From NCBI RefSeq assembly GCF_036250695.1, contig NZ_CP109427.1, positions 744,001 to 808,000 of the forward strand: a DNA stretch of 64,000 nt, read 5' to 3'. The notes under the pieces are model-generated. The model did no database searches. It worked only from the letters and a program-made list of their open reading frames with translations, and had not been told where the DNA came from. Origin of the DNA: Streptomyces sp. NBC_01497 (GTDB taxonomy: Bacteria; Actinomycetota; Actinomycetes; Streptomycetales; Streptomycetaceae). The position numbers were made by a program, and so were the translations under genes. Positions 3,439-64,000 of the stretch are shown here, piece after piece. The first letter of the stretch is position 1. Each line of letters starts with the position of its first letter.

Positions 3439-3443
3439 CGTCT

Positions 3444-7755: not shown

Positions 7756-7831
7756 CGTGCCGAGGCAGCCGTGCCCCACGGTTCCGGCGTCCCCCGGGCA
7801 GGACGACCGTCAGGTCCCGTCGCCCGGCTCC

Positions 7832-46672: not shown

Positions 46673-48618
<1,946 letters not shown>

Positions 48619-48619
48619 G

Positions 48620-49324
48620 TCAGCTCACCAGTCCGGTCATGACGGCGACGGGTACGGCGATGAATCCGGCGGTCAGCAGGAGCGCCAGCACGTTCGCCAC
48701 GGTCTTGAAGGCACGGTCGCGGGTGGCACTGCCCGCGCCGAGGGTCTGCGCGGCGCTCCAGAAGCCGTGCTGGATGTGCAGGCCGAGGGCGAGCATCGCG
48801 ACGATGTAGATGACGTCGTTCCACCACTCGTTGAAGGCGGCGACGACGTTGGCGTAGGGGTGCCCCGGCACGAAGCCCGGCTGCACGGTGCCGGTGGTCA
48901 GGTCGAGGATGTGCCAGACGATGAACAGGCCGAGGATCACCCCGCCCCAGCGCATGGTGCGGGTGGCGTAGCTGGTGCGGGCCTTCTTGTGCACGTACTT
49001 GGTGGGGCGGGCGGCGATGTCGCGGCGGCTGAGCTGGTACGCGCTGACGGCGTGCGCGACGACGGCGACGACCAGGACCACCCGGATGATCCACAGGAGC
49101 CATGAGTAGTGGAAGAACGGCTCGCCGATGACACGGAGCCAGTGTGCGTAGTCGTCGAAGGTGGTGGGCCCGAAGAAGATCTTCAGGTTCCCGTACATGT
49201 GGACCACGAGGTAGCCGAGCATCAGCAGACCGCTGACGGCCATCACCGTTTTCTTGCCGATCGTGGAGTCCCAGACCGATTGGGGCAGGGACGGCCGTTT
49301 GTCAGTCCGCGAAGCCAGAGCCAT
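48620..49324 (-). CDS. sdhC: succinate dehydrogenase cytochrome b subunit, type B
   Basis: A 234-residue membrane subunit with five hydrophobic helices and conserved heme-ligand His residues ([52 protein letters not shown]). One large subunit carrying two hemes is the type B arrangement of menaquinone-linked enzymes. It begins the operon; the divergent LysR gene starts 83 bp away. Confidence 0.92.
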
Positions 49325-49365
49325 GGCGCTGACGTTAGATCCGGTGGGCCCCAGAGGTCCAAGAC

Positions 49366-49398
49366 ATGGATTGGCTCATATCCATAGCCTGTACCTAT
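49366..49398. promoter_or_regulatory. LysR-type boxes in the sdhC/LysR gap
   Basis: ATGGAT-N8-ATCCAT (49366-49385) abuts ATAG-N7-CTAT (49384-49398), the latter containing an exact T-N11-A box. ATAG-N7-CTAT is the OxyR-type half of LTTR sites. Both lie between the divergent starts. Confidence 0.6.
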
Positions 49399-49407
49399 CA
49401 TGACATC

Positions 49408-50310: not shown

Positions 50311-50616
50311 TCCGACGGGAAACGCCGGCCCCCTGACCGTTGCGGCCCCCGGGCCGGGCACGAGCCGGGTCCCCGAACGCCCGACGCCCCGCGGCGGGGG
50401 CGCTCCCTTGCCGCCTTGCCGGGTGCCTCGGCCGCCCCGGCCTTGCGAGGTTGCGCGCGGTACCGCCGCGGGCATCCTCCCGCCGGTGGCTGCCCCCTCC
50501 CGTACGCGGGTCTCCTCGGGGGCCACCGGGCCCACCGGGCGGACGGCCCCGCCACCGGACGCGCGGCGCCCGACCGGCCGGCGCCTCCTGGCGGGCCGCC
50601 GCGGGGGGATCCGGGC
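50311..50616. other. convergent intergenic region
   Basis: No gene supported. A CGCCCC-loop-GGGGCG hairpin (50385-50402) could end both transcripts; the rest is GC-rich spacer. This is the probable left border of the RiPP-associated gene set. Confidence 0.5.
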
Positions 50617-51180
50617 TCAGCCCGAGGTCTCCAGCAGGCGCCGCAGCTCGTCGGCCATCCGCAGGGCCGCCGTGCGCCCCGCACCGTCGAGTTCGGTGTC
50701 GGCCGGCCGGCTGCGGTCGACGACCACCCGCAGCGCCACCGCCGCGTGCCGCGCGAACAGGGCCAGCAGGTCCAGTTCGTCGAGGCTGGAGCGCGACTGC
50801 GGCGCCGGATCCAGCACCTCCAGCACTCCGAGCAGCCGCTCGCCGTGGGTGAGCGGCGCGGCCATCAGGGCGTCGGGCACGTACCGGGTGGACTCGGCGA
50901 AGTCGCGGGCGAAGGAGGTGTTGTGGGAGAGGTCGTCCACGACCATCGGCTCGCCCGAGGCGACCACCCAGCCCGCTATGCCGCCGTCCGCCGGGAACCG
51001 CCGTCCCACGAGAGAACTCTCGCCGCGCCCCGAGACCGCCTGGAAGACCAGTTCGTGCCGGTCCTCGTCGAGGAGGAAGACCGAACTGGCCTGCGCCCCG
51101 AAAATGGCCCGCGCCGTATCGACCACGGATCGCATCAGCTCCTGGGAGAGCGGATCGGTCGCTGTGTTGCTGTCTGTCAC
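50617..51180 (-). CDS. GAF domain protein
   Basis: A 187-residue soluble protein consisting of one GAF domain (SSVFLLDEDRHELVFQAVSG, GIAGWVVASGEPMVV, LMAAPLTHGERLLGVLEV) and a helical tail. GAF domains bind small ligands or sense redox state; no output domain is present. Its GTG overlaps the subtilase stop (GTGA), so the two are translated together. It may sense a signal for the peptidase or partner with the cyclase-like regulator upstream, both inferred. Confidence 0.82.
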   Translation of the reverse strand: MTDSNTATDPLSQELMRSVVDTARAIFGAQASSVFLLDEDRHELVFQAVSGRGESSLVGRRFPADGGIAGWVVASGEPMVVDDLSHNTSFARDFAESTRYVPDALMAAPLTHGERLLGVLEVLDPAPQSRSSLDELDLLALFARHAAVALRVVVDRSRPADTELDGAGRTAALRMADELRRLLETSG

Positions 51181-52019
51181 GAGGCACCCCTGACACCGAT
51201 GTGTACGTTGGCGGCGGAAAGGTAGAGAGCGTTCTTGAGCTGGAAAGTCGTCATCCGGCGGTGCTTGGAGAGGATCCGCGCGCTCAGCCCGGCGATGTAC
51301 GGGGTCGCGAAACTGTTGCCCGTCGTACGGATGGATGTGCCGCCGAGCCAGGCGACCCGCACGTTCTGGCCCGGGGCGAAGAACTCCACCGGGGGCCGCG
51401 GGTTGTACAGGTGCAGATCCGGGTCCTCCTCCTGGTGGCTGCCCACCGAGATCACCGAGGCGAAGCGCCACGGATAGCTCTCCACCGGCGTGTTGTGCGC
51501 GGAGGCGACGATCACCGAGCGGCGGAAGTACGCCTCGTCGGCGAGCGTGCGCAGTTCCTCGGCGAACCGCACGCGCGTGGTGGACAGGCTGAGGTTGATG
51601 ACATCGAAACCCTGTTCGATCGCGAACCGCAGTCCCGCGAGCAGCACGTCACCCGTGCCGCCGAAGCCCTTGCCGAGCACCTGCACGCTGTACAGCTCGC
51701 ACTCCGGCGCCGCCCTGCGGATGATGCCCGCGCAGGCCGTGCCGTGCCCGCAGCTGTCGGAGGGCTCGCTCGCCGACACGGTGAGCTCCGCTCCGTCCTT
51801 GCGCACGACCCACGCCCCGTCGACCGGGCCGACCAGGGGATGGCCGTCCTCCACGCCGGAGTCCACGACGCACACCCGTACGCCCCGCCCGCGCGCGCCG
51901 TCCCACTGCCAGGACGGCGCGGGCCGCTCCCCGTCCGCGGCCACGATCACGTCCTGCAGGCTCTTGCCGCGCAGGCTCCAGGTGAGCCCTGCGCGCGGCA
52001 CCGTCCCCGCGCTGTCCAT
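51177..52019 (-). CDS. cytoplasmic S8 (subtilase) peptidase
   Basis: A 280-residue subtilisin-fold protease with a complete triad: Asp53 in VCVVDSGV, His92 in CGHGTACAG, Ser236 in GNSFATPYIAG; Asn176 in ASAHNTP supplies the oxyanion hole. There is no signal peptide, propeptide or transmembrane segment, so it should act inside the cell. That fits RiPP leader removal, as for several subtilase-type leader peptidases, and it lies 173 bp after the cyclase gene on the same strand as the radical SAM operon. It may instead be an ordinary regulatory protease. Confidence 0.85.
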   Translation of the reverse strand: MDSAGTVPRAGLTWSLRGKSLQDVIVAADGERPAPSWQWDGARGRGVRVCVVDSGVEDGHPLVGPVDGAWVVRKDGAELTVSASEPSDSCGHGTACAGIIRRAAPECELYSVQVLGKGFGGTGDVLLAGLRFAIEQGFDVINLSLSTTRVRFAEELRTLADEAYFRRSVIVASAHNTPVESYPWRFASVISVGSHQEEDPDLHLYNPRPPVEFFAPGQNVRVAWLGGTSIRTTGNSFATPYIAGLSARILSKHRRMTTFQLKNALYLSAANVHIGVRGAS

Positions 52020-52192
52020 CCGACCTTCTTTCCAGGGCCCTACCGGCGCCGGCCGGCGGGCGATTCGAATCCTCGGAGCGGGGCCGCGAAACGCCCCCGT
52101 CCCCGTGCGCCGCGGTGTCGCCGCGGGCGGCGGTCAAGCCCGTCCGGGACCGGCCGGCACCCCCGCGGTCCCGGTCCTCGCCAGGGGCGCGG

Positions 52193-55100
52193 TCAGCCAG
52201 GTTTCGCGTGCTGAAGCGGCGGACTCCCGGCTTCCAGGGCCGCGTGCATCTCCGCGGCCCGCCGGGCACCCGGCAGATGCCCCTTGGCGGTGAAGCACCG
52301 CTGCGCCCGCAGGGCCGCCTCGCCGGCCCCCGCACGCCGCCCCGAGCTCCGCAGCACCTCGGCCTGGTCCAGCAGCGCGACGGCCCGCACGACGGTGGAG
52401 TCGGTACGCGCGGCGGTGAGCACCGCGCGGTCGGCCAGGGCGGTGGCTTCGCCGGGCTCGCCCCGGGCCGCCGCGATCCTGGCCAGCAGGCCGTCGAGGT
52501 CCGCGGCCTCGGAAGGGGCCGGGGTGGTGGGCGCGGAGCCGGACACCGGTCGATCCGGCGGGGGCAGTCGCAGGGCGGCCTCCTCGAACCGGCCCTCGTC
52601 CACGAGCAGCCGTGCCGTGTCCCTCGCGACCGCCCCGAGCAGCCCTTCGGCCTTGAGCCGGCGCCCCGAGTCCGCCGCCTCCTCCAGCAGGGCCAGGGCC
52701 CGGCCCGTGTCGCCCGCCAGCGCCGCGACGGCCGCGGAGAACAGCGGAAGCACCACGGCGCCCTCGGCGTAGCCGAGTTCGCCGGCCAGCCGCCGGGCGT
52801 CGGCCAGCGCGGTGTCCGCCTCCTCCCAGTGCTCCTGGAGTGCGAGCAGCACCGCGAGGGGGCAACTCAGCGTCAGCCGGGCCGTGGGCCGCCGCTCCCC
52901 GTGCTCCCGCAGCAGCAGCCGGGCGCGCGAGACCGCGTCGGGGACCGGCTCGGGCCCCCGCCACAGCGAGATCCCGATCGCGCCGAGTGCCAGCGCCCGT
53001 TCGGGCTCGGCCCCTGATCGCGTGGCGTGTTCCAGGGCCCGCGTGAGCAGGACGTCGGCCGCGCCGTGCCTGCCGTGCAGTTGCCTGTCCTGGGCGATGC
53101 GGATGCACGCCCTCGCCTGTCCCAGGTCGTCCCCGGCCCGTTCGAACACCGGCAGGGTCCGCGACGCGGCGCTCCCGGCGCTGCTCCCGTCCGGCGCGGC
53201 GGAGGCCGCCGCGAGTTCGAGGAGGGCGTGCGCGGCCTCCACCCGGCTCCCCGCGTCCGCCGCGGTGGGGCCCCCGCCGGTCCCGCCCCCGGACGCCGAG
53301 CGCACCGGTGACGGGGTGGGCCCGCCCGGCACGGGAGGGGTCGCCGCCAGGACCGCGAGGAGGAGGGAGCGCCCCTCGTCCACCTGGCCTGTCGCCAGTC
53401 GTACGCCACCGAGGCGGCGCGCCGCGGCGACCCACTCGTCATCGGTCGGTGAGGTCAGCTCGACCGCGCGGCCGAGCAGGACCCCGGCCCAGGAAAGGTC
53501 GGACCTGGCAAGGGCCTGTGATCCGCCGCGGATCAGCAACCGGGCCGCACCGAGCCGGAGTTCGTGGGTCCGCGCGTCCAGCAGGCCCAGTTCCGCCCGG
53601 TAACGGTAGGCGTGCTCCAGGTGGCCCGCCACCATCGCGTCGGCCTCGGCCGGCCCCGCTCCCCGGACTGGTGGGGCCTCGGACAGCCGCGCCTCGGCCA
53701 GTCGGGCGGCCCGCTCGTGCCGTTCGGCGCGGGCCCGCTTGGCCATGGACTGGTAGGTGACCTCGTGGACCAGCCCACTGCTGAAGCGCAGCCCCGGCGT
53801 TCCCGGCGCCTGCCGCTCCGTCACCCGGACGAGCCGGTGCCGCCGCAGGCGGGCGAGTGCGCTGTCGATCGGCCCGCGACTCCCGCCGGAGCCCTGCCCC
53901 GCGGGAGTGTGGAGCGCGCCGCCGGGGGCGCCTTCACGGTCCTCCGCCGCGAGCGCGGCGACGTCGTCCGCTCCGAACTCGCGTCCCACCACCGATGCCA
54001 GGTCCAGTACGGCCCGCTCGGCTCGTCCGAGCCCGCCGATCCTCGCCCCCAGCAGGGCCTGCAGGCTGGTCGGCAGGGCGCCCGCCCCGTCGAGGCGGTA
54101 GCCGGACTCCGGCTGCCCGAGTGCGGTGAGCAGCTGCTCCAGGTAGAACGGATTGCCGCCGGCTGCCTCCAGGACGTGTACCGACACGGCGGACCCCAGC
54201 CCGTCCGCGCCGCCGTCCGCCCCGATGCCCGTGCCGCCCGTGCCCGTGCCGGCCCCGGTCAGCGCCCCGGCGAGCGCCTCCGCCTCCGCCGGAGTCAGGC
54301 CGGGCAGGGTCAGCGCCGACGGCCGCAGGCGTCCCTGCCCCCAGCCGGGACGCCGATCGTGCAGGTCAGGGCGCGCCATGCAGACGAACAGGACAGCCTG
54401 GGAGGTCAGTTCGCCGGCCAGCGTCTCCAACACGTCGAGCAGGAGTTCGCTCGCCCACTGGCAGTCGTCCACGACCAGCACCACCGGCCGCCTGCGGGCC
54501 ACTACCGTGAGCAGACCGACAACGGCCGCGCAGGTGTCGTCCAGCGACGGGTTCGGCGTGCCGTCCTCCAGCAGTCCCGCCGCGAGCACGTCCAGCGACC
54601 TGGCCGCCTCGGTCCGGTCCGCGGTGGCCCCGGCCTCGGCGGGCCCCGGGTCGTGGTCCGCCGTCAGCTCCCCGCACACCGACGACAGCAACTGCCGGAG
54701 CGCGTCGGCGAGCGGCGCCAGGCTGCCGTGTTCCCCGTACGGGCGGCAGCGGCCCGAGCCCTGGGCGAACGAGTCCCCGTCCGCCTTGTGCCATTCGTGA
54801 ATGAGCCGTGTCTTGCCCATCCCGGCCTCGCCGTAGAGGGTCAGCAGGTTCGCCCCCCGCCTGACGGGGACCACGGTGGACATGAACGCCTCGCGAAGCC
54901 AGGCGAGTTCGGCGGTCCGCCCGACGAAGGGGACATCGAATCGGCGGCCCGCCGCCGGGTCCGCCTCGACGACGCCCAGCAGCCGGTGGGCCGTGACGGG
55001 CTCCTCCTTGCCCTTCAGCCCCAGCGGGCCGACGGATTCGGTGCGGACCGCGGCGCCCGCGGCGCGCCGCGTCTCGGGACCTATCAGCACTTCACCCGTG

Positions 55101-55624
55101 GCGGATGCCTGTTCGAGCCGCGCGGCGATGTTGACCGTCTCGCCGGACACCAGGGCCTGCCGGGTCGACACGTCCGTACTCGTCACGGCGGGGCCGGTGT
55201 TGACACCGATCCGGACGCCGAGGCGGATGCCGAGCGAGGGGTGCAGTTCCCTCTCGTTGAGCCGCTCCACCGCGTCGAGCATGGCCAGGGCCGCGGCGCT
55301 CGCCCGCGCCGCGTCGTCCTCGTGCGTGACCGGGACGCCGAACACGGCCATCACCGCGTCGCCGATGAACTTCTCGACGGTGCCGCCGAACTCCTCCAGG
55401 CACTCCCGCATCAGGTCGAAGTACCGGAGCACCACCGTGCGCAGCGTCTCCGGATCGAGGACGCCGGACAGTGCCGTCGATCCCACCAGGTCGCAGAAGA
55501 CCACGGTCACGACCTTGCGCTCCTCCACCGGCGCGACCGCGGACTCCACGGGGACCGCGGAGCCGCAGGCCGGGCAGAAGCGCGCGTTCGGCGGCAGTTC
55601 TCCGTCGCAGGGTGCGCACCGCAT
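52193..55624 (-). CDS. class III cyclase-AAA ATPase-TPR regulator
   Basis: An 1143-residue protein. A zinc ribbon (Cys3, Cys6, Cys17, Cys20) leads into a class III adenylate/guanylate-cyclase domain (metal Asp45 in VVFCDLVGST, Asp89 in KFIGDAVMAVFG), an AAA/NB-ARC-like ATPase (GEAGMGKT near residue 270, VLVVDDCQWA) and a long helical/TPR-like C-terminal half. Such fusions are usually signalling or transcription regulators without a DNA-binding domain. It begins 35 bp after the 76-residue peptide gene with its own AAAGGAC site, so it may be the last gene of the radical SAM operon. Nucleotide product not known. Confidence 0.85.
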   Translation of the reverse strand: MRCAPCDGELPPNARFCPACGSAVPVESAVAPVEERKVVTVVFCDLVGSTALSGVLDPETLRTVVLRYFDLMRECLEEFGGTVEKFIGDAVMAVFGVPVTHEDDAARASAAALAMLDAVERLNERELHPSLGIRLGVRIGVNTGPAVTSTDVSTRQALVSGETVNIAARLEQASATGEVLIGPETRRAAGAAVRTESVGPLGLKGKEEPVTAHRLLGVVEADPAAGRRFDVPFVGRTAELAWLREAFMSTVVPVRRGANLLTLYGEAGMGKTRLIHEWHKADGDSFAQGSGRCRPYGEHGSLAPLADALRQLLSSVCGELTADHDPGPAEAGATADRTEAARSLDVLAAGLLEDGTPNPSLDDTCAAVVGLLTVVARRRPVVLVVDDCQWASELLLDVLETLAGELTSQAVLFVCMARPDLHDRRPGWGQGRLRPSALTLPGLTPAEAEALAGALTGAGTGTGGTGIGADGGADGLGSAVSVHVLEAAGGNPFYLEQLLTALGQPESGYRLDGAGALPTSLQALLGARIGGLGRAERAVLDLASVVGREFGADDVAALAAEDREGAPGGALHTPAGQGSGGSRGPIDSALARLRRHRLVRVTERQAPGTPGLRFSSGLVHEVTYQSMAKRARAERHERAARLAEARLSEAPPVRGAGPAEADAMVAGHLEHAYRYRAELGLLDARTHELRLGAARLLIRGGSQALARSDLSWAGVLLGRAVELTSPTDDEWVAAARRLGGVRLATGQVDEGRSLLLAVLAATPPVPGGPTPSPVRSASGGGTGGGPTAADAGSRVEAAHALLELAAASAAPDGSSAGSAASRTLPVFERAGDDLGQARACIRIAQDRQLHGRHGAADVLLTRALEHATRSGAEPERALALGAIGISLWRGPEPVPDAVSRARLLLREHGERRPTARLTLSCPLAVLLALQEHWEEADTALADARRLAGELGYAEGAVVLPLFSAAVAALAGDTGRALALLEEAADSGRRLKAEGLLGAVARDTARLLVDEGRFEEAALRLPPPDRPVSGSAPTTPAPSEAADLDGLLARIAAARGEPGEATALADRAVLTAARTDSTVVRAVALLDQAEVLRSSGRRAGAGEAALRAQRCFTAKGHLPGARRAAEMHAALEAGSPPLQHAKPG

Positions 55625-55659
55625 GGCTTTGTCCTTTCCCCGGAACGCCCGGAGAGGTC

Positions 55660-55890
55660 TCAGAAGAGCGCCCCGCCGGCGATCTCGCTGTGCGCTTGCA
55701 CTTCGGGGCCGACCTCGTCGAGGCGTGCCTTGATGTCGAGGACCAGCTCCAACTCCTGCGAGCTCAACTCGCCCAGCACCTGGCGCTGTTCGTCGGTGAG
55801 GCCGTCGACGCCGAAGCCGTGCGACGCCAGGATGTCCAGTGTCTGTTCGCCGCGGGAGTCACCGGCGGCCCGTGTCGTGTTCTCGCTCAT
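55660..55890 (-). CDS. putative RiPP precursor peptide, EVQAH/GGALF type
   Basis: A 76-residue acidic peptide. Residues 30-60 form a likely helical leader (LTDEQRQVLGELSSQELELVLDIKARL); the end is GPEVQAHSEIAGGALF, with EVQAH at 63-67 and a GG pair at 72-73. It has no Cys, so it is not a lanthionine substrate. The ATG overlaps the HDO stop (ATGA) and is preceded by GGAGGG. Size, composition and coupling to an HDO and a radical SAM enzyme argue for a substrate peptide. The EV(E/Q)AH box recurs in the five lanthipeptide precursors. I do not recognise a described family. Confidence 0.7.
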   Translation of the reverse strand: MSENTTRAAGDSRGEQTLDILASHGFGVDGLTDEQRQVLGELSSQELELVLDIKARLDEVGPEVQAHSEIAGGALF

Positions 55891-56618
55891 GACGTACTGG
55901 TCCCTCCTCTTGCAGGGTTCTCGTCCACGCAGGCCGCGCGGTCGATTCGGGCGAACAGGTCCAGCAGGCCGGACACGGTGTGCAGGGCGCTCGTGGTGAG
56001 CGCGTTCACCAGCACCGGGCCGATCGGCAGGGTGTCGACGAGGGCGAACAGGTCCGCCGTGTGGTCCGTGTCCAGCTCGGCGTGCTCGCGCACGGTGCGC
56101 AGCGCGGCCCGGGGGACCCCGGCCGCCTCGGCGATCCGCTCCGCCAGCCAGGGCGCGGGCGCGCAGCTCTCCAGCACGGCGATGTATCCGAGCAGCGCGA
56201 CCGGGTGGTGGTGCTCGATCCAGTAGTACTGGGTCCCCACGAACCGGGCTACCTCGGGCGGCGGTTGCCGCGCGCGCACCGCCGCCGGGTCCCCGCCGAG
56301 CGCCGCGATGTCGCCGAGCAGCCACTCGTCGTGACCGCGCTCCTCCTCGACGTGCTCACGCAGGTAGGCGGCGAGCGGCGCCCCCACCGCGTCGGTGGCG
56401 CCGAGCGCGGTGGAGCGCTCCGCGGCCCGTTCCATCAGCGGTACCGAGGCCCGGATCACCGCGTGCATCACCGGCAGGTACACCGCGTACCGCCTGCCGA
56501 GTCCGTCCGGCCGCCACAGCCACCCGGTCGCGGCCCGCACCGCCGGCTCGGTCAGGGCGAGGCGGGCCCGCAGCGCCGTCCCGGCCGTCACCGGCGCACG
56601 GGTGCCCGGGGTGCTCAT
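55887..56618 (-). CDS. heme-oxygenase-fold diiron oxidase (HDO)-like protein
   Basis: A 243-residue all-helical protein of the iron-containing redox enzyme/TenA-PqqC-like superfamily. Candidate metal ligands occur in the expected order: Glu92/93 with His96 (EEERGHDE), Glu135/His136-138 (WIEHHHPVALLGY), and His179, Asp183, His186 (EHAELDTDH). This six-ligand layout is that of diiron HDOs, which catalyse oxygen-dependent desaturation, N-oxygenation or C-C cleavage. It overlaps the radical SAM gene at its start and the peptide gene at its end, so the three are one translational unit. Its reaction is inferred to be on the peptide. Confidence 0.78.
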   Translation of the reverse strand: MSTPGTRAPVTAGTALRARLALTEPAVRAATGWLWRPDGLGRRYAVYLPVMHAVIRASVPLMERAAERSTALGATDAVGAPLAAYLREHVEEERGHDEWLLGDIAALGGDPAAVRARQPPPEVARFVGTQYYWIEHHHPVALLGYIAVLESCAPAPWLAERIAEAAGVPRAALRTVREHAELDTDHTADLFALVDTLPIGPVLVNALTTSALHTVSGLLDLFARIDRAACVDENPARGGTSTS

Positions 56619-57712
56619 CGCGGCGGCCCGGGGAGAGCGACCAGATCCGCGTACGGCGCGCAACCGTGCCGACGCACGAGCGCGACCGGGCCCGCCTCGG
56701 TCTGCGCCCTGGCCGCCTGTCCGTCGAGCAGCTCACCGAGCGGTCCCGACGCGAACGAGGCTGCGGCGTCGAGGACTTCGGGATGATCGCCGAGAGTGCG
56801 GCAGCCCGCGCAGTACCCGGGCGGGGCGGCTCCTTCCGGGGCGGTGGCGAACCGGGCCCTGAGGTGGGCGGGGCCCACGGTCCTGATCATGCGCAGCGCC
56901 GGCGAGGAGAGCGCCCGCGCGCGCACCGACGACCAGGTGTCCCGGGTCACATGACCGAGCGTCAGGTGTTCCGGCGACGGCCTGCGGTCCACCACGTGCT
57001 GGTTGCAGCACGCCAGGACCGTGCCGTCGGCCGCCACGACGGGCCAGGCCGCCATGGAGCACGGCAGTGCGCGCCACGGGTCCGGGTCGACGGCGCGCGC
57101 GGTGGCCCAGGACGCCGCGCGGCCCACCTGACGCAGGGAGTTGACGAGCATCGGCACCCGGTCGTCGAAGGTGCGCCGGATGTCGGAGGTGACGTCGGCC
57201 AGGTAGGGGTCGTCGGGCCCGGATCCGACGAGGTGGAAGCTGACGGCCCCGCCCGCGTCCTGCACCCCTCGGATCAGCCGGAACACGGCACGGCGGCTGA
57301 TCTCCCGCTCGTGGAAGGCGTCCAGGCTGACCGAGAAGTGGTCGACTGCGGCGATCGCGCGGGCGATCCGTGGCGGGAGGCCCACGCGCCGCCCGCCGTC
57401 GTCCCGCACGGCGAAGTAGGCCCCGGTCAAAAGGACGCTCCGGGTCGCCACCGCCCGTGCCGTATCGGCCAGTTCGGTCACCAGGTCCGGCCGCAGCAGC
57501 GGTTCGCCGCCGGTCATCATCAGCACCTCGGGGCGGTTCTCCGCGCTGAACGAGTCGACGAAGCGCACGAGTTGTCGCGCGTCCGGCTCTCCTGCCGCCA
57601 TGGTGGCCGCGGTCGAGCAGTGCGCGCAGTGCAGCGGGCAGCGTCCGGTGACGGTGAGCAGCAGCCCCGCGCCGGGTACCGGACGGAGCGTCATCAGCTC
57701 GGCGAGTTCCAT
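56615..57712 (-). CDS. radical SAM protein with SPASM/twitch-like C-terminus
   Basis: A 365-residue radical SAM enzyme. The [4Fe-4S] motif is Cys25-x3-Cys29-x2-Cys32 (CPLHCAHC) and GGEP lies at 68-71. Further cysteines at 218, 235, 236, 301 and 304 (CSMAAWPV, LACCNQ, YCAGC) suggest at least one auxiliary cluster, as in SPASM or twitch peptide-modifying enzymes. It is the first gene of the radical SAM-HDO-peptide unit. Peptide cross-linking, epimerisation or oxidation cannot be told apart from sequence. GGAGG sites precede the ATG. Confidence 0.85.
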   Translation of the reverse strand: MELAELMTLRPVPGAGLLLTVTGRCPLHCAHCSTAATMAAGEPDARQLVRFVDSFSAENRPEVLMMTGGEPLLRPDLVTELADTARAVATRSVLLTGAYFAVRDDGGRRVGLPPRIARAIAAVDHFSVSLDAFHEREISRRAVFRLIRGVQDAGGAVSFHLVGSGPDDPYLADVTSDIRRTFDDRVPMLVNSLRQVGRAASWATARAVDPDPWRALPCSMAAWPVVAADGTVLACCNQHVVDRRPSPEHLTLGHVTRDTWSSVRARALSSPALRMIRTVGPAHLRARFATAPEGAAPPGYCAGCRTLGDHPEVLDAAASFASGPLGELLDGQAARAQTEAGPVALVRRHGCAPYADLVALPGPPR

Positions 57713-57748
57713 CGCGTGCTCCCTCCTGGTCCTCCACAGTCTTGGCTC

Positions 57749-57781
57749 GTGCGGTTCGGCACGGGGAGAGGAGCGGTTCGG
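57749..57781 (-). promoter_or_regulatory. repeated GCGGTTCGG in radical SAM operon promoter
   Basis: GCGGTTCGG occurs at 57751-57759 and 57773-57781, exactly 22 bp (two helical turns) apart, 39-69 bp upstream of the radical SAM start. Read leftward it gives CCGAACCGC twice, and the block GTTCCGAACCG-CTCC is close to GTTCCGAATCCGCCGCTCC before the first lanthipeptide precursor. A SARP site is a reasonable guess. Confidence 0.5.
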
Positions 57782-57823
57782 AACTGGTAAATCCGCAGGC
57801 GGGTGCAGTCCTGGCGGGAACTC

Positions 57824-59767
57824 TCAGGCCGTGGCGCGCACCGCGGGGGCCGGCTGCCCGACCGCACACTGACGCGCGTACACCCGGCTCAGGCACGGCA
57901 GTTCGTACTGGGCCGCGTGCGCGGTGACCTCGCTGTCGGGAGCGAGCAGCGCGCCCGCGTCCAGGAGCGCCTCCAGCTTCCGTAACGCGTCATCCTGGGC
58001 GCAGTTGAGTACGGCCGCGGCCTGCCGCAGGCTGAAGCCACCGGCCGGCAGGCCCCCGAGCAGGCAGAGAGACGCCCGATCGGCCGCGGACAGGTCGTGC
58101 CAGCCACTCGCCAGCCTCGATCGCACATCCATGTCGCCGGCCACCAGTTCGTCCAGGACGATCCGGCCGTCGGCCAGCCGTTCCGCGTATTCGGCGAGCG
58201 GCAGATGCCGTCGTACGGCGAGTTTGAGTCCGCTCACCCGTACCGCGAGCGGGAGGCCGCCCGTGGCGCGGGTGATGCGCTCAGCGGCCTCGGGGCAGTT
58301 GTCGAGACGGTCCCGCCCCACGATGGCACGCAGCAGGGCCAGGCTCTCGGCGGTGGCGAACGGCCCGGTCTCCTGGCGATGCGCGGAGACCAGCCCCACC
58401 AGCCGGGTGCGCGCCGTGACCAGTACGGCGCTGGCGCCGCGGTCCGGCACCAGCGGGCGGATGCCCGCCTCTTCCCTCGCGTCGTCCAGGACGAGCAGCA
58501 CCTTGCGCGGCCCGAGCCAGGCCCGCCACGCGGCAGCGGCCTCGTCGAGGTCGCCGGACGCGGCGAGGGCCCCGGCCGCCGGGCCGCCCCAGGGGCCGCC
58601 CCCGTCGTCCGCCTCCCCCGCGCCGGCGCCGGCGCCGGCGCCGGACAGGCCCGTGCGCCGCGTGAGTTCGGCGAGCACCGACGCACCGGACCTGGGGCGC
58701 CCGGCTTCGTCGCGCATCCGGATCAGGACCCGGCCGTCGGGGAAGCGGTCGCCGAGCCGGTGGGCCGTGTGCACGGCAAGCGCGGTCTTGCCCGAGCCCA
58801 CGGGTCCGCTGACGACGGCGAGCCGGCCCTCGCCCGGCCCCGTGCCCTCGGCGCCGGACTCCAAGAAGGCCGTCAGCGCGCGCCGTTGCTCTCCCCGTCC
58901 GGTGAAGTCCGGGAGGTCCTGCGGCAGCAGGGTGCCGAGCGTGCCGTCGGACCATCGGCCTCCCGCGCCGCGACGGGCCGCGAACGGCCCCCCGACGTCG
59001 CGCGGACCGCCGTCCAGCATCGACCGGTACAGCGTTTCGAGCGCGGGGCTCGGCTGCAGCCCGTACTCGGCCGCGAGGAGCCGTCGCAGTCCCTCGTACC
59101 CGGCGAGTGCCTCGGTCTGCCGCCCCTGGGCGAACAGCGCGTTCATCTGAGCTGCCCGCAACCGCTCCCGCTCCGGGTGCCGTTCGACCAGCTCCCCGAC
59201 GGTGTCGGCCACTTCATTGGTGTGGCCGAGCCGGAGTTCGGCCTCGGCCCAGTCCTCGTAGACCCGCAGAACACGGTCGTCGAGGCGTTCCGCCTCCATC
59301 CGGACCGCGGGAGAGAAGCGCAGGTCGTGCAGGGACAGGCCGCGGCGCAGGCCCAGCGCTTCCCGCAGCAGGCGGGAGGCGGCGCCGATCGCGCCCTGGG
59401 CCACGGCTTCACGGGCCGCCCGGGACAGCGACCGCAGGCGCTCGGCGTCCAGTTCCCCGGGCTCCACCCGCAGGCGGTACCCGCCCGTCCCGTGCGCCAG
59501 CCGGTCGCACCCACCGCCCGCCGCCAGGACCTTGCGGAGCGCGGACACGTAGACCTGGATGTTCTTGCGCGCGGTACGCGGCGGGTCGCTCTCCCACAGC
59601 GTGTCGATCAGCAGGTCCGAGGAGACGGGGGTGTTGGGGCGGCACAGCAGCATCGCCAGGACCAGCCGCTGTTTGAGCGGTCCGAGGGGCAGCGGTCCGT
59701 CCGCGGTGTCCGCCGAGAGGGGGCCCAGGACGGTGAACTTCAGGTGATCGTGCGGTGATTCAGCCAT
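57824..59767 (-). CDS. SARP/AfsR-type cluster regulator (large SARP with NB-ARC domain)
   Basis: A 647-residue regulator. An OmpR-type winged helix (residues about 10-100: PLKQRLVLAMLLCRPNTPVSSDLLIDTLWESDPP), a BTAD (about 105-250) and an NB-ARC ATPase (GPVGSGKTALAV; LLVLDDAREE) are visible, followed by a helical region. SARPs activate antibiotic and RiPP clusters by binding heptamers at 11-bp spacing. A TTA codon for Leu595 (57983-57985) makes translation bldA-dependent in Streptomyces. The gene lies between the two arms of the peptide cluster and has an expected target site before the precursor genes. Confidence 0.9.
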   Translation of the reverse strand: MAESPHDHLKFTVLGPLSADTADGPLPLGPLKQRLVLAMLLCRPNTPVSSDLLIDTLWESDPPRTARKNIQVYVSALRKVLAAGGGCDRLAHGTGGYRLRVEPGELDAERLRSLSRAAREAVAQGAIGAASRLLREALGLRRGLSLHDLRFSPAVRMEAERLDDRVLRVYEDWAEAELRLGHTNEVADTVGELVERHPERERLRAAQMNALFAQGRQTEALAGYEGLRRLLAAEYGLQPSPALETLYRSMLDGGPRDVGGPFAARRGAGGRWSDGTLGTLLPQDLPDFTGRGEQRRALTAFLESGAEGTGPGEGRLAVVSGPVGSGKTALAVHTAHRLGDRFPDGRVLIRMRDEAGRPRSGASVLAELTRRTGLSGAGAGAGAGEADDGGGPWGGPAAGALAASGDLDEAAAAWRAWLGPRKVLLVLDDAREEAGIRPLVPDRGASAVLVTARTRLVGLVSAHRQETGPFATAESLALLRAIVGRDRLDNCPEAAERITRATGGLPLAVRVSGLKLAVRRHLPLAEYAERLADGRIVLDELVAGDMDVRSRLASGWHDLSAADRASLCLLGGLPAGGFSLRQAAAVLNCAQDDALRKLEALLDAGALLAPDSEVTAHAAQYELPCLSRVYARQCAVGQPAPAVRATA

Positions 59768-59928
59768 GTCGGTATGTCACCTTTCCCACTGCCGGACCCC
59801 GACGCGACGGAGCAGCTGAGATGAATGGCGCTCGGCGAATGACTTATATCAGACGAGACGCGACGCGGGAACGCCTCAACGGATCGGCGTCCGGGTCGAG
59901 TTGGGGAAACCCCCCGCTGGCTGCGGTG

Positions 59929-59981
59929 ATACCGACCGCATACCGCGCGCAGACCGGTTCCGAATCCGCCGCTCCTAGCTT
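59929..59981 (+). promoter_or_regulatory. SARP-type operator and promoter of the precursor operon
   Basis: Four heptamers sit exactly 11 bp apart: ATACCGA (59929), ATACCGC (59940), AGACCGG (59951) and a weaker GAATCCG (59962). Seven bases after the last one comes TAGCTT (59976-59981), a plausible -10. Heptamers with 4-bp spacers ending 7-8 bp before the -10 are the standard SARP arrangement. The first precursor starts 51 bp further on. Spacing is read directly; SARP binding is inference. Confidence 0.7.
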
Positions 59982-60032
59982 CTGTGGTGTTCGCAGCCCC
60001 ACTCGTGGATCCACTGATCGAAGGAGAAGACC

Positions 60033-60203
60033 ATGGCTGACGCCGTCGAGCCCACCACCGAGGACAACGAGGCCGGCAACGAGGTCGAGGCGCACGCCGC
60101 GACCCCGCTGGAGCTGCAGGAGATGGGCCTGAGCCAGCCCGACAAGGGTACCGACGGCCTCGTCGCCGGCAACAGCTCGGTCAGCGCCGCCGTCTGCGCC
60201 TGA
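60033..60203 (+). CDS. class III lanthipeptide precursor 1
   Basis: A 56-residue precursor: acidic leader with EVEAH (17-21) and PLELQEMG (25-32), where LxLQ fits the recognition motif of class III leaders; the C-terminal core ends GNSSVSAAVCA. Ser-x2-Ser-x3-Cys in the core is the labionin/methyllabionin pattern. GAAGGAGAAGACC precedes the ATG. It is the copy nearest the SARP-type promoter and is followed by a strong hairpin, so it may be the most abundant transcript. Confidence 0.85.
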   Translation: MADAVEPTTEDNEAGNEVEAHAATPLELQEMGLSQPDKGTDGLVAGNSSVSAAVCA

Positions 60204-60224
60204 GCCGACAGCTTGTGACGTGCC

Positions 60225-60265
60225 CGCCGCCGGTGGTGCCGCCCCGTGGCGCACCACCGGCGGCG
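60225..60265 (+). terminator. 15-bp hairpin after first precursor gene (attenuator or processing site)
   Basis: CGCCGCCGGTGGTGC (60225-60239) and GCACCACCGGCGGCG (60251-60265) pair perfectly with an 11-base loop, 21 bases after the stop. In lanthipeptide operons such hairpins limit read-through from precursor to enzyme genes. A degenerate copy of the same sequence (GCACCACCGGCGG) occurs after precursor 4 near 61300. Confidence 0.75.
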
Positions 60266-60386
60266 CGCCGCTCCCCGGACACCTCCCGCGCCATGGGCCC
60301 GGGAGGGGAGCACGGACGCTCCGCTCGGCTGGAACCGGGTGGGCATCATCAGCTCCTTTTTCCCCTCTCACCCGCAGGAGACGGAC

Positions 60387-60575
60387 ATGACCGATCCGGC
60401 GAAGCCCACCGACCCCGACAGCACTCCCGATGTCGCCTCATCCGGGGAGGAGTTCGAGGTCCAGGCGCACGCCGCGGCCCCTCTCGGCCTCCAGGAGCTG
60501 GACGTCAGGGGCCCCGACCAGGACTCCCTCCTGGTGGTGACCAGCAGCGCGACCAGTGTCGCCATGTGCTCGTGA
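60387..60575 (+). CDS. class III lanthipeptide precursor 2
   Basis: A 62-residue paralogue: EVQAH in the leader, then PLGLQELD, and a core ending SSATSVAMCS. The core holds Ser-x2-Ser-x3-Cys. It shares SLLV(V/A)TS with precursor 3 and the EEFEV start of the conserved region with precursor 5. GCAGGAGACGGAC precedes the ATG. The 183-bp gap before it is longer than needed and may carry its own promoter. Confidence 0.83.
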   Translation: MTDPAKPTDPDSTPDVASSGEEFEVQAHAAAPLGLQELDVRGPDQDSLLVVTSSATSVAMCS

Positions 60576-60709
60576 GCCACCGGAACGGCTCCGGCCCACG
60601 CGCGCGAAGTGACCGCCGCTCGCTCGCGCCGTCAGTGATCATGTGCCGCGCGCGGGCCGGAGTCCGATCCCACCCCGGTGCCTTCCTGCGGGGTTCGGGG
60701 TTCTCGTCC

Positions 60710-60730
60710 GACCCGTGACCCGTGACCCGA
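60710..60730. repeat. tandem heptamers upstream of precursor 3
   Basis: GACCCGT, GACCCGT, GACCCGA follow one another directly; a second doublet GGGGTTC GGGGTTC lies at 60690-60703. Both are in the spacer before precursor 3. Confidence 0.75.
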
Positions 60731-60748
60731 CGAACCCAGGAGCACTCC

Positions 60749-60913
60749 ATGGCGGACTCGACCGAAGCCACCACCGAGGACATCGAGCCCGGCCAGGAGG
60801 TCGAGGCGCACTCCGCGAAGCCCCTCGGCCTCCAGGAAATGGGCGTCCGGGCCCCCGGCCAGGACTCCCTCCTCGTGGCGACCAGCACGACCAGCGTCAT
60901 CTCGTGCGAATGA
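60749..60913 (+). CDS. class III lanthipeptide precursor 3
   Basis: A 54-residue paralogue with EVEAH, PLGLQEMG and a core ending TSTTSVISCE, again Ser-x2-Ser-x3-Cys. It is the shortest copy and the only one with a charged last residue. Leader start (MADSTEATTED) resembles precursor 1, whereas core resembles precursor 2, which suggests mosaic exchange among copies. CCAGGAG precedes the ATG. Confidence 0.83.
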   Translation: MADSTEATTEDIEPGQEVEAHSAKPLGLQEMGVRAPGQDSLLVATSTTSVISCE

Positions 60914-61083
60914 CCCGGCGGGATCGACGGCGCCCGCCCGGCCGGCGGCGGGGGTCGCGGCACACCGCCGCAACCGGCACCGATCCCGATCGCCGTCCGT
61001 GTGCCGACCGGCACCCGGCCCGCCATGCCGGGCCATCGCGGCGCCCAGCTCGCCCACCGCACCCACCGCGGAAGGAGAAGGCC

Positions 61084-61254
61084 GTGGCTAACTCCGTCGA
61101 CGCCGGCGAGGCCGACGAATCCCACGAGGACGGCAACGAGGTCGAGGCGCACGCCGCGACCCCCGTCGAACTCCAGGAAATGGGCGTACGCGACCCCCGC
61201 AATGGGGCCGACGGTGTCATCGGTTCCAGCATCGTCAGCCTCGCGGCCTGCTGA
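61084..61254 (+). CDS. class III lanthipeptide precursor 4 (GTG start)
   Basis: A 56-residue paralogue most like precursor 1 (EVEAHAATP, ELQEMGVRDP), with core GSSIVSLAAC holding Ser-x2-Ser-x3-Cys and ending at the Cys. The GTG start is preceded by GGAAGGAGAAGGCC and aligns with the ATG of precursor 1. No ATG is available in frame nearby. Confidence 0.82.
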   Translation: MANSVDAGEADESHEDGNEVEAHAATPVELQEMGVRDPRNGADGVIGSSIVSLAAC

Positions 61255-61364
61255 GCCGATCAGGACCGGCCCGCATCCGCCCGTGGCACCGCCCGGGCGC
61301 ACCACCGGCGGCCCGCCGCCTCCCTGCGCACCCACCTCCCTCCCACCCCGACCGAAGGACGGAC

Positions 61365-61547
61365 ATGAGCGATCCCACGAAGCCCGACGACACGGATGCC
61401 ACAAGCGAACTGACGGAGAGTGAGGACGAGTTCGAGGTCGAGGCGCACTCGGCTGCGCCGCTCGGCCTCCAGGAACTGGGCATCAAGAGCCCCGAGCCGG
61501 AGAATCCCGTGGTCGGCGTGAGTCTGAGCAGCATGATCCTCTGCTAG
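61365..61547 (+). CDS. class III lanthipeptide precursor 5
   Basis: A 60-residue paralogue with EDEFEVEAH, PLGLQELG and a core ending VSLSSMILC (Ser-x2-Ser-x3-Cys, no residue after Cys). It starts like precursor 2 (MSDPTKPDDTD versus MTDPAKPTDPD), marking these two as a subgroup. The 110-bp spacer before it is the shortest of the array; the synthetase gene follows 179 bp downstream. Confidence 0.83.
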   Translation: MSDPTKPDDTDATSELTESEDEFEVEAHSAAPLGLQELGIKSPEPENPVVGVSLSSMILC

Positions 61548-61726
61548 CGATCCCGGCGAGCAGTCCCTCTGCCTGCCTGTGGCGACGCGCGCCCGACCGG
61601 CCGCCCCGGCCCGGCCCTTCCTCTGAGCGTGGAGGAGAGGGGCGACCCCGCCGGGGAGCACCTGCCGACCCGCTGACACGCGCCCTGCCACCCGTAGTCG
61701 CACTCGAACCCACCGTGGAGAGGTCC

Positions 61727-64000
61727 ATGATCCCGTTCCCGTTCGTCGTCGCGGACAAAGAGTTCTACGCACCGTTGGAAACAGCCCGCGACCGCGGCGA
61801 GGTCTACCGGCCCGGCCACGTGCCGGACGGCTGGAGCGAGACCGGGTCCGGCGTCTGGACCATGTGGCACCGGGGCAGGCAACTGCGCGGTGTCGAGGAC
61901 GGATGGAAGGTGCACGTGTCGGCGCGGCCCGGCCGCCTGCCGCACGTCCTCGACACCGTCGCGGCCGTCTGCTTCGAGCAGGACGTCGCGTTCAAGCACC
62001 TGTCATGCCACTTGTTCTACTGGTGGACGCACCACAAGCAGGCGGCCCGTGCACAGAACGGCAAGTTCATCGCCGCCTACCCGACGAGTGTCACCGCCGC
62101 CCGCGACCTGATGGAGCGGCTGCGCGAGGCACTCGCCGACGAGGACGGCCCGTACATCCTCACCGACCGGCGCTACCGCGACTCGCGCACCGTGCACTAC
62201 CGGTACGGGGCCTTCGCGCCGCGCGAGCGGGTCAACGCCGACGGCACCCACACCCTGCTGGTGCGGGGCGCGGGCGGCGCTCTGGAGGAGGACCGGCGCG
62301 GTGTGTCCTTCCACCTCCCGGCCGGCGTGTCCGATCCCTTCGCCGAGAGGCGCCCGGCCGCCGAGGAGGCCCCGCCGGGCACTGCGGCCCAGTCCGCGCC
62401 GATCTCCTTCCACGGCTTCGAGTTCGAGGAGGCGCTGCAGTTCACCAACGGCGGCGGCGCGTACGTGGGCCGCGAGACGTCGACCGGACGACGGGTCTTC
62501 ATCAAGGAGGCCCGCGCCTACGCGGGTGTGTCCGAGGGCGTCGCCTGCGCACCGGACACACTGCGCACCGAACACGCGACGCTGGTGGCGCTGCACGAGG
62601 CCGCGCCGGGTCTGGGGCCCGAGCCGCTCGCCTACTTCCGCGAGTGGGAACACGACTTCCTCGTCACCGAGTTCATCGAGGGCAGCACGCTCTCCCGCTG
62701 GATGGTCGCCCACCAGACCATGCTCGGAACGGGCCGCGAACCCCACGAGTTCAGGGAGTACCACGCACGGTGCGAGAAGGTACTCGGCCGGATCGAGGCC
62801 GCCTTGGAGCGCCTGCACACCGCGGGCTACGCCTTCGTGGACGTCAGCCCCGGCAACGTACTCGTCTCCGAGGACGACGGTGTCCGCCTGATCGATTTCG
62901 AGGGCGCCCAGCTGATCGGCACCAAGGAGTTCAGGACCATCGGCACCCCGGGCTACATGCCTCCCCCGGAACTCGCCGGGGACGACCCGCTCGTCCACGA
63001 CGCGTACGGTTTCGCCGGTCTCGCGCTGCTGCTGGTCGGCCCCTTCCACCAGGTGGCGCAGCGCAACCCCGACACGCTCGCGCACCTGCACGGCGAGCTC
63101 GTCGAACGTGCCCCGCTGCCGGACTCGTTGTGGCGCACCGCCACCCGGTTCCACCAGCCGAGGCCCGCACCGGAGGGGGTCGCACCGATCCCGACCCCGC
63201 AGGAGGTCGCCGCCGACCCGCTGCGCCACCTCGCCGAGTTGCGCGACCGGACCGCCGACGCCCTCGTCGCCATGGCCGACCCGGACCACCCCGACCGGGT
63301 GTTCCCCACCATCGCCGAGGGCTACCACACCAACACCCTGTGCCTGGCGTACGGCACGGCGGGGGTCGTGCACGCTCTGGGCCGCGCGGGCCGCCCGCTG
63401 CCGCCGGGAGTGCTGGAGCGGCTGCGCGGCGACGCGCTGCGCGCCGTGGACAAACTGCCGCCGGGTCTCTACGCGGGCACGGCGGGCATCGCCGAAGTGC
63501 TCGCCGGACGCGGCCTGCTGGAGGAGGCGGGCGACCTGCTCGCGGCCGCCGACCGGCATCCCCTCATCACGTCGGGCGCGTCCGTGACGCTCTTCGGCGG
63601 CACCTGCGGCGTCGCGCTGGCCCACCTGGGCATGTACGGCCGCACCCGGGACGAGCGGCACGTGGACCGGGCCCTGGAACTGGCGGCGGCCCTGCCCGAG
63701 GACGCCGACCTCACGCCGCACGTCGGCGCCGACGACGCCACCGGCCTGCTCCACGGCCGCACCGGCATCGCCCTGCTGCTCCAGCAGCTCGCCGCGGTGA
63801 CGGGCTCCACGCACCACCTGGACCGGGGGGTCCGCCTGCTGCACGCCGAGCTCGACCGCGCCACCGACCCCCGTCCCGACTCCCCCGGCCTCGCCTTCCC
63901 GATCTCCACCACGGACACCCGCAGCCTGCCCTACCTCTACTGCGGCTCGGCCTCGGTCGCGCACGCGGTCTCCCGCTACGTGCTGTGCGTGCAGGACGAC
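61727..64000 (+). CDS. class III lanthipeptide synthetase LanKC (cut by window edge)
   Basis: 758 codons are open to the window edge. An N-terminal lyase domain (FYAPLETARD, DGWKVHVSA, GPYILTDRRYRDSR, VHYRYG) matches class III LanKC/RamC. A kinase domain follows, with a Gly-rich loop (GGGAYVG near 240), Lys in VFIKEA, VDVSPGNVLV (about 370) and IDFEGA (about 389). A LanC-like domain begins near 500 (GTAGVVHAL, LYAGTAGIAEVL, LLHGRTGIALLL). YLYCGSASV stands where zinc-type cyclases have WCYG, so the zinc site is probably absent, as in class III. GTGGAGAGG precedes the ATG. It should phosphorylate, dehydrate and cyclise the five upstream precursors. Confidence 0.92.
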   Translation, partial: MIPFPFVVADKEFYAPLETARDRGEVYRPGHVPDGWSETGSGVWTMWHRGRQLRGVEDGWKVHVSARPGRLPHVLDTVAAVCFEQDVAFKHLSCHLFYWWTHHKQAARAQNGKFIAAYPTSVTAARDLMERLREALADEDGPYILTDRRYRDSRTVHYRYGAFAPRERVNADGTHTLLVRGAGGALEEDRRGVSFHLPAGVSDPFAERRPAAEEAPPGTAAQSAPISFHGFEFEEALQFTNGGGAYVGRETSTGRRVFIKEARAYAGVSEGVACAPDTLRTEHATLVALHEAAPGLGPEPLAYFREWEHDFLVTEFIEGSTLSRWMVAHQTMLGTGREPHEFREYHARCEKVLGRIEAALERLHTAGYAFVDVSPGNVLVSEDDGVRLIDFEGAQLIGTKEFRTIGTPGYMPPPELAGDDPLVHDAYGFAGLALLLVGPFHQVAQRNPDTLAHLHGELVERAPLPDSLWRTATRFHQPRPAPEGVAPIPTPQEVAADPLRHLAELRDRTADALVAMADPDHPDRVFPTIAEGYHTNTLCLAYGTAGVVHALGRAGRPLPPGVLERLRGDALRAVDKLPPGLYAGTAGIAEVLAGRGLLEEAGDLLAAADRHPLITSGASVTLFGGTCGVALAHLGMYGRTRDERHVDRALELAAALPEDADLTPHVGADDATGLLHGRTGIALLLQQLAAVTGSTHHLDRGVRLLHAELDRATDPRPDSPGLAFPISTTDTRSLPYLYCGSASVAHAVSRYVLCVQDD

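Follow-up and report, generated by a model that had tools for sequence, protein, structure and literature searches.

Three elements of the locus considered here are already known from described systems: the leader-peptide family, a heme-oxygenase-like diiron oxidase (HDO) in a RiPP cluster (VarO), and radical SAM (rSAM) epimerases. According to the accessible part of PMC13185094, the mangotoxin HDO MboA desaturates the C-terminal residue of Leu-Ala-Arg; its ligands are given there as Glu86, His89, Asp90, Glu143, His172, Asp176, and His181, and the C-terminal carboxylate of the substrate binds Fe1. VarO is encoded by an HDO gene in the RiPP cluster for thiovarsolin and, in the accessible portion of its description, is proposed to introduce a double bond into the side chain of an Arg residue; the accessible part of PMC8120280 likewise places a heme-oxygenase-like gene in Sinorhizobium TfuA clusters. 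For the epipeptide epimerase EpeE, Cys223 is the proposed hydrogen donor in epimerization (accessible part of PMC8326336), and in PQQ synthesis the heme-oxygenase fold is reported to act in a metal-independent manner (accessible part of PMC13108848).

Here we consider a locus in which an rSAM enzyme, an HDO, and a short peptide are encoded side by side. The relevant features lie as follows in the window, by which we mean the whole 64-kb stretch of DNA analyzed:

56615..57712, minus strand: radical SAM (rSAM) enzyme, 365 aa, with CxxxCxxC (C25, C29, C32) and C218, C235, C236, C301, and C304
55887..56618, minus strand: heme-oxygenase-like diiron oxidase (HDO), 243 aa, with predicted ligands E93/H96/(D97)/E150/H179/D183/H186
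55660..55890, minus strand: putative precursor peptide, 76 aa, consisting of a leader domain and the tail EVQAH-SEIAGGALF
52193..55624, minus strand: class III nucleotide cyclase/AAA protein (by Pfam), 1143 aa, a putative receptor-effector
51177..52019, minus strand: subtilisin-family S8 protease, 280 aa, a putative leader peptidase (PF00082, 87.1 bits)
50617..51180, minus strand: GAF-domain protein, 187 aa, found with the cassette (PF01590, 66.3 bits)
57824..59767, minus strand: SARP-family regulator (BTAD and NB-ARC), 647 aa, a neighbor (PF03704, 106.2 bits)
60033..61547, plus strand: five putative class III lanthipeptide precursors (60033, 60387, 60749, 61084, 61365), carrying EV[EQ]AH
61715..64000, plus strand: class III lanthionine synthetase LanKC, extending past the window end (NF038151, 621 bits, cut-off 575)
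64374 (window coordinates): MFS transporter after LanKC (MFS_1, 67.2 bits, cut-off 33.4)

An earlier note on this DNA had described the rSAM, HDO, and peptide genes as joined by stop–start overlaps, and both junctions are indeed ATGA overlaps on the minus strand. All three genes are present, but as a set of three the locus was understated: the same-strand run goes on with the cyclase/AAA, S8 protease, and GAF genes, giving six same-strand genes (rSAM, HDO, peptide, cyclase/AAA, subtilisin, GAF; hereafter the cassette), in which the cyclase/AAA gene begins 35 bp beyond the peptide gene. No exporter gene lies within the six genes, and no RNA families were found at gathering thresholds at positions 48000-64000. 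To the left of the six-gene set are a LysR gene and, as judged by eye, an apparent succinate-dehydrogenase operon.

Across 295 Streptomyces genomes, the HDO was found in 44 (approximately 15%) and the NF045560 leader domain exceeded its cut-off in 53. All 44 HDO genomes fall within the 53 leader-domain genomes (hypergeometric 7e-44, ignoring relatedness; since the genomes are related, this and the other co-occurrence p-value given below are too small). The counts from these searches rest on a capped number of scored candidates in each genome, and a gene reported as not found is to be read as something short of proven absence. Among GTDB contigs, rSAM and HDO adjoin the peptide in 16 of 16 peptide relatives, with cyclase, subtilisin, and GAF alongside in 15; the exception, L014, is a contig that ends just past the peptide, and in L012 the rSAM, HDO, and subtilisin matches are broken across frames. 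The fetched loci of the 53 genomes contain 64 peptides according to a leader-only model (its training set being these same loci, truncated at the motif), and 45 of these have an HDO within 8 kb. Of these 45 HDO-linked peptides, 44 have an rSAM, 44 a cyclase, 43 a subtilisin, and 43 a GAF gene with them; the missing genes are confined to two loci at contig ends (L071 and L090). In 47 of 49 loci the peptide and cyclase genes are adjacent, with a median gap of 87 bp (range -25 to 465); in L112 and L114, the other two, they are divergent. Several contigs occur in both genome collections (L007/L092, L004/L105, L009/L063, L013/L065, L016/L094).

We do not use gene-distance correlation as proof that the six genes form a unit. 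Among rSAM, HDO, cyclase, subtilisin, and GAF, the pairwise distances show correlations of 0.91-0.98 (47 loci), but the SARP outside the cassette correlates equally well (0.94-0.96; 35 loci), which deprives the measure of any value as evidence for a six-gene unit. No plasmid copies of the 76-aa peptide were found at E <= 0.01. Six places below the NF045560 cut-off (G039, G071, G134, G167, G199, G227) lie in 180-191-aa frames, and tblastn at their loci (L061, L100-L104) found no cassette gene; for two HDO matches (L131 and L132; E 4e-7), no cassette partner was found on their contigs.

The peptide is, as had been noted, short and Cys-free with an EVQAH..GGALF end: it comprises 76 aa, contains no Cys, terminates in EVQAHSEIAGGALF, and belongs to NCBIfam NF045560 (68.1 bits, cut-off 30). 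That membership qualifies the suggestion of an undescribed RiPP class. The unit of rSAM, HDO, leader, cyclase, subtilisin, and GAF was not found in searches of the open-access literature, but the leader itself is catalogued by NCBI as the 'aroma-sacti cluster domain'. Alignment of the C-terminus across relatives, which the earlier note had proposed as a check, reveals strong conservation. In the main type, represented by 48 distinct DNAs (picked by the motif EV.AH...AG[GA]ALF, for which a leader-based selection is the fairer test), the tail EVxAHxxxAG[GA]ALF is nearly fixed, with eight forms in total and synonymous variation in its codons. The amino acids at -15 to -13, -11, -10, -6, -5, -3, -2, and -1 (P, E, V, A, H, A, G, A, L, F) are invariant across the 48 DNAs, and each of these positions except Phe -1 uses two to four codons.

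By the leader-only model, all 45 peptides with an HDO within 8 kb end in F (39) or W (6), while 18 of the 19 peptides lacking an HDO within that distance end in L (9), N (4), C (4), or E (1). The remaining, F-ending peptide (G177) was considered as an orphan, a reading ruled out by an HDO approximately 22 kb away on the same contig. The nine leader-bearing genomes in which no HDO was found have no aromatic tails at all. At several loci (L051, L052, L053, L054, L059, L060, L116) the rSAM query matches two adjoining genes, and the tails there include GGVVW, GGVLF, and GGYLW; the second rSAM-matching gene of L051, the one locus examined for this, reaches 35.3 bits in Pfam. Conservation of the peptide–rSAM–HDO unit, and of the C-terminus with it, makes a RiPP-type pathway the reading that we favor. 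The locus has the sequence hallmarks of such a pathway, namely a ribosomal precursor, a conserved leader, and linked modifying enzymes that would yield a modified peptide, and we consider RiPP-type modification of the tail probable.

The HDO matches Pfam Haem_oxygenas_2 (PF14518; 50.4 bits, cut-off 28.9), and its structural model (pLDDT 94.1) matches 3dde, UndA, and CADD. The residues behind the six-ligand, diiron-type reading of the earlier note are conserved among relatives: all 52 sequences compared (duplicate contigs included) have E93, D97, E150, H179, D183, and H186, and 51 of them have H96. Three His and three carboxylate ligands within a heme-oxygenase fold characterize the HDO superfamily, and E93, H96, E150, H179, D183, and H186 are predicted to supply them here. 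The ligands correspond to those of MboA, in which the substrate carboxylate binds Fe1, and by this analogy the enzyme would, rather likely, act on the terminal aromatic residue with its free carboxylate.

The rSAM enzyme is recognized by Pfam (Radical_SAM, PF04055; 50.3 bits, cut-off 29.5), with a SPASM match of 15.4 bits that stays below its cut-off of 21.5. The auxiliary-cluster cysteines pointed out earlier are conserved, C218, C235, C301, and C304 in 49 of 49 sequences and C236 in 48 of 49. The nearest solved fold to its AlphaFold2 model (pLDDT 91.5) is EpeE (E 2.2e-12, TMq 0.66), followed by DesII (6.4e-9) and SkfB (4.5e-8), and in a profile search EpeE again comes first (1.7e-11) and PqqE second (1.5e-6). 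In the profile alignment EpeE Cys223 aligns with C236 of the rSAM (EpeE numbering as deduced from mutant chains), and EpeE Asp210 aligns with A222, so the Asp is not kept. Scores for the 25 NCBIfam rSAM models listed all stay far short of the respective cut-offs: the best match, NirJ (32.6 bits), is far under, and the scores are 27.6 bits for the EpeE family TIGR04078 (cut-off 300) and 30.7 bits for PqqE (cut-off 381). A single-sequence PDB search (phmmer) puts PqqE first (3.3e-5) and 8wm2 after it (0.001), with EpeE absent at E <= 0.01. Weighing EpeE's lead in fold and profile against the missed cut-offs, the single-sequence result, and the loss of Asp210, we treat EpeE-like action as a lead, not as family membership; that the rSAM is an epimerase is conceivable, at somewhat less than an even chance.

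The same comparisons bear on the possibility of a small cofactor of the PQQ or mycofactocin type, in which the invariant tail would be excised and oxidized to a redox cofactor. The earlier note had drawn the parallel with PQQ synthesis, and part of it stands: PqqE leads the single-sequence search and is second by profile, the C-terminal aromatic is invariant, and an rSAM, an oxidase, and a protease are found together. However, the rSAM scores far under the PqqE cut-off and has EpeE as its nearest fold, no dehydrogenase client was recognized by eye among shared neighbor families, and the distribution is sporadic (44 of 295 genomes); the peptide, as the note itself had remarked, is unlike PqqA, showing no PqqA family match. 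On the PqqE score and the EpeE fold and profile we rejected a PQQ-like cofactor as the main reading, and we consider it very unlikely.

In RRNPP-like signaling, a subtilisin-type protease releases a C-terminal peptide to which a TPR receptor binds. A comparison with such systems would be tentative: the cyclase protein, the protease, and the tail are co-encoded, and the TPR_12 match of the cyclase/AAA protein stands at 20.2 bits in the window (cut-off 30.1), against 39.4 bits in Sinorhizobium fredii; a zinc-ribbon match is also weak. The protein is otherwise clearly recognized (PF00211, 84.2 bits; PF13191, 75 bits), and residues D45, K85, D89, N165, R169, G270, and K271, which we take to be catalytic, are invariant in 50 of 50 sequences. 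In the S8 protease, D53, H92, N176, and S236 are invariant in 49 of 49 sequences (duplicate contigs included), leaving the triad intact; its scores fall below the cut-offs of both the QhpE model NF049966 (99 bits, cut-off 165) and the mycosin model (106.5 bits, cut-off 278.75), and a crude hydropathy scan found no signal peptide. A signal role acting through the cyclase, whose part as receptor is suggested by adjacency, is a tentative proposal that we hold a little short of even. The cyclase, subtilisin, and GAF proteins could alternatively be the sensor-effectors of a defense or conflict module triggered by the peptide, given that the cyclase domain matches Pycsar cyclase models (best 1.4e-17) and the protease a subtilase model (1.2e-18). 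These matches look like general class III cyclase and subtilase similarity, however, and the HDO, peptide, and GAF protein have no PADLOC match at E <= 0.01; we regard a defense function as extremely unlikely.

A motif of the peptide recurs in the neighboring lanthipeptide cluster. In a six-frame scan of the window, strict EV[EQR]AH occurs six times, in the five precursors and in the 76-aa peptide. The lanthipeptide precursors were assigned by position beside LanKC, with no family model reaching its cut-off for four of them (NCBIfam, Pfam) or for the fifth (61084; Pfam alone). A precursor model, biased in that it was built from cassette-neighboring precursors, has matches in 23 of 295 genomes, each of which is also one of the 44 with the HDO (hypergeometric 2e-22, relatedness ignored); the match in G155 is partial (24 of 52 positions), and the precursor shares a contig with the cassette in 22 of the 23, lying on a separate short contig in G028. 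A common protease or recognition factor would be a plausible reason. Both the shared EV[EQ]AH motif and the restriction of the model to HDO genomes (23 of 23, one partial) would also fit a scheme in which the rSAM and HDO have the lanthipeptide precursors, or a free metabolite, as their substrates, the 76-aa peptide being merely a partner or adaptor. Against this, no such precursor was found in 21 of the 44 HDO genomes, and whether an HDO is present goes along with which residue ends the members of the 76-aa peptide family; we hold the adaptor scheme to be decidedly improbable.

Returning to modification of the 76-aa peptide itself, what the analysis shows is the order and co-occurrence of the genes, their conservation, the ligand and catalytic residues, and the folds predicted; beyond this, we infer the substrate, each reaction, the cut site, and the signaling as follows, our confidence in each part being a judgement as opposed to a computed value. 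The leader domain would present the tail (EVQAH-SEIAGGALF in the window genome). The rSAM would alter a tail residue, most likely through C-alpha hydrogen abstraction and epimerization, as EpeE does, and the HDO would bind the free C-terminal carboxylate and oxidize (desaturate or decarboxylate) the terminal Phe or Trp, in the manner of MboA and UndA on their respective substrates. The co-encoded intracellular subtilisin would cut at or near EVxAH, giving a peptide of approximately 9-11 residues, which the cyclase/AAA protein (with the GAF protein) would sense to make a cyclic nucleotide; this, in turn, would switch on the SARP and neighboring clusters such as the lanthipeptide one. As the parts of this mechanism are separable, we lean only slightly toward the joint statement that the cassette is of RiPP type and produces a single, nearly invariant short peptide that may be a signal. 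An ordinary secreted, antibiotic-like RiPP would share the tail modification by rSAM and HDO but leave the cyclase, protease, and GAF protein to regulate or process. Proteins that by eye resemble MFS transporters form a family encoded close to the cassette in 34 of 49 loci (the window is not one of the 34; a rough count from crude GC3 gene calls), an MFS gene follows LanKC in the window's genome, and StsA-related sactipeptides have the same leader domain. The tail, on the other hand, is near-constant (8 forms among 48 motif-chosen DNAs), unlike many antibiotic cores, and the transporter sits outside the six-gene unit; a secreted RiPP thus appears unlikely to us.

Relatives of the leader are found with other tails and partners. 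Sactipeptide-type precursors share the leader, with CACG tails in L048 and L096-L099 and ..VVC or ..VLC tails in L049, L050, L066, and L095. The L096 peptide reaches 131.6 bits for NF045559 (cut-off 75) and 60.1 for NF045560; identification of these relatives as StsA itself was rejected, L096 fitting NF045559 and scoring 14.9 bits for NF045558 (cut-off 42). At L048 an StsB-family maturase (NF045574, 885 bits) shares the locus with a cyclase, a subtilisin, and a GAF protein. For the 76-aa peptide, membership among the StsA-related sactipeptides was likewise set aside (NF045559, 19.6 bits, cut-off 75; no Cys). In the nine genomes with sactipeptide-type leaders no HDO was found. These HDO-less genomes keep the cyclase, together with subtilisin and GAF except in L066 and L095, which are at contig ends, and in 9 of 9 a leader peptide ending DLKLL precedes the cyclase, the CACG-tailed peptides lying >8 kb from it. 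An HTH-fusion reading of the DLKLL peptides was rejected, as the ORFs ran through an upstream frame and an ATG adjoins the leader. The peptide–rSAM–HDO unit put forward in the earlier note is conserved, with the reservation that one leader peptide adjoins the cyclase in 9 of 9 HDO-less genomes; homologues without rSAM and HDO, which the note had counted against its proposal, do occur in these nine genomes, but belong to other subclasses with different tails.

Outside the genus, peptide and HDO lie beside a divergent cyclase in L112 and L114; in L113 the cyclase end, peptide, and HDO are in line; L129 has an HDO, a divergent cyclase, and a weaker peptide (E 0.0024, own model); and in L130, where part of the peptide region is masked, an HDO and a cyclase are seen. 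A search of these short contigs (L112, L113, L114, L129, L130) found no rSAM. In L115 the peptide is at a contig end, and neither HDO nor cyclase is there. In S. fredii (L133), an HDO 43.8% identical over 80% lies near YcaO, TfuA, and a 928-aa protein whose cyclase and TPR domains both exceed their cut-offs; a small peptide there is weakly leader-like (E 1.3e-4), ends in Leu, and has no NCBIfam match, and no rSAM relative was found. Peptide similarity is weak in L129 and S. fredii, neither of which yields an NF045560 match. HDO-adjacent tails outside the genus have Val (L112, L113, L114, L129) or Leu (S. fredii) as their last residue, which means that the aromatic end does not hold generally. 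Since the cyclase is present in sactipeptide-type, HDO-only, and YcaO/TfuA variants, it is the constant element and the chemistry is swapped: the cyclase is a partner in every variant, though not beside each peptide.

A broader and more speculative reading, which we consider possible but doubtful, is that a stereochemically altered, C-terminally oxidized short peptide would be sensed by a TPR/AAA cyclase, and that leader and cyclase (with subtilisin and GAF in Streptomyces) may form a reusable chassis controlling neighboring clusters, for example those for class III lanthipeptides. The chemistries mounted on this chassis would be rSAM with HDO, sactisynthase, HDO alone, YcaO/TfuA with HDO, and perhaps none for the DLKLL peptides. 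Should the modified peptide indeed be a signal read by the cyclase, the pathway would stand out as unusual among those for bacterial peptides. The cassette couples two oxidative enzyme families to one peptide, yields a prediction of the substrate site of an HDO (a free C-terminal aromatic), and offers a tractable case for asking whether modified ribosomal peptides serve Streptomyces as signals that nucleotide cyclases read out. As approximately 15% of the sampled Streptomyces genomes carry the cassette, the product should be findable in many strains.

Compared with the closest described systems, the window HDO has the ligand set and spacing of MboA except for the last spacing (3 here, 5 in MboA), but the MboA substrate is built by ATP-grasp ligases, and the accessible part of its description names neither an rSAM nor a cyclase with it. 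VarO works beside YcaO/TfuA, again with no rSAM or cyclase named in the accessible part of its source. EpeE (YydG) is the closest solved fold and profile to the window rSAM and has the Cys223 equivalent, whereas the rSAM falls below the TIGR04078 cut-off and has Asp210 replaced; we know of no HDO partner in the EpeE pathway. PQQ biosynthesis (PqqE/PqqC) also combines an rSAM with a heme-oxygenase-fold protein, but the fold is metal-independent there (according to the accessible part of the source), the window rSAM misses the PqqE cut-off, and the peptide has no PqqA-family match. The StsA-related sactipeptides (NF045559), with their StsB maturases, have the same leader domain as the 76-aa peptide, which differs in being paired with another rSAM and an HDO. 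The S. fredii locus is alike in its HDO, cyclase/TPR protein, and small peptide, and has YcaO/TfuA in place of the rSAM.

In all nine genomes that carry the leader domain and in which no HDO was found (loci L048, L049, L050, L066 and L095-L099), a leader peptide ending in DLKLL directly precedes the cyclase gene; this peptide is possibly an unmodified signal peptide. One of these loci, L049, which is of the sactipeptide type, has a further gene following the GAF gene:

L049:10917-11948, plus strand, ATP-grasp peptide maturase-like gene (TIGR04187, 87.7 bits, under the cut-off of 350)

For genome G177, no leader peptide was found adjoining the cassette (L116/L117). The sole leader peptide of this genome over the 30-bit cut-off has the tail SIGGLLF and is encoded on the contig of the cassette, at a distance of about 22 kb.

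Two further gene families occur near the cassette. The first, of about 500 aa, is common to L006, L013, L074-L078, L080 and L081; its L074 member, the single one inspected at full length, looks by eye like a second radical SAM enzyme with C-terminal cysteines. The second, glycosyltransferase-like, is present in 14 loci, overlapping in part with those of the first.

Beside the cassette in the window itself lies another gene set, ordered precursors, LanKC and then, outside the window, an MFS transporter:

window 60033-64000, plus strand, putative class III lanthipeptide cluster (five distinct precursors, LanKC)

Each of the five putative precursors contains EV[EQ]AH a short distance upstream of an LQ motif.

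A Sinorhizobium fredii plasmid carries a set that is possibly a thioamide variant of the cassette:

L133, about 2460-8640, HDO, weakly leader-like peptide, YcaO, TfuA and cyclase/TPR protein
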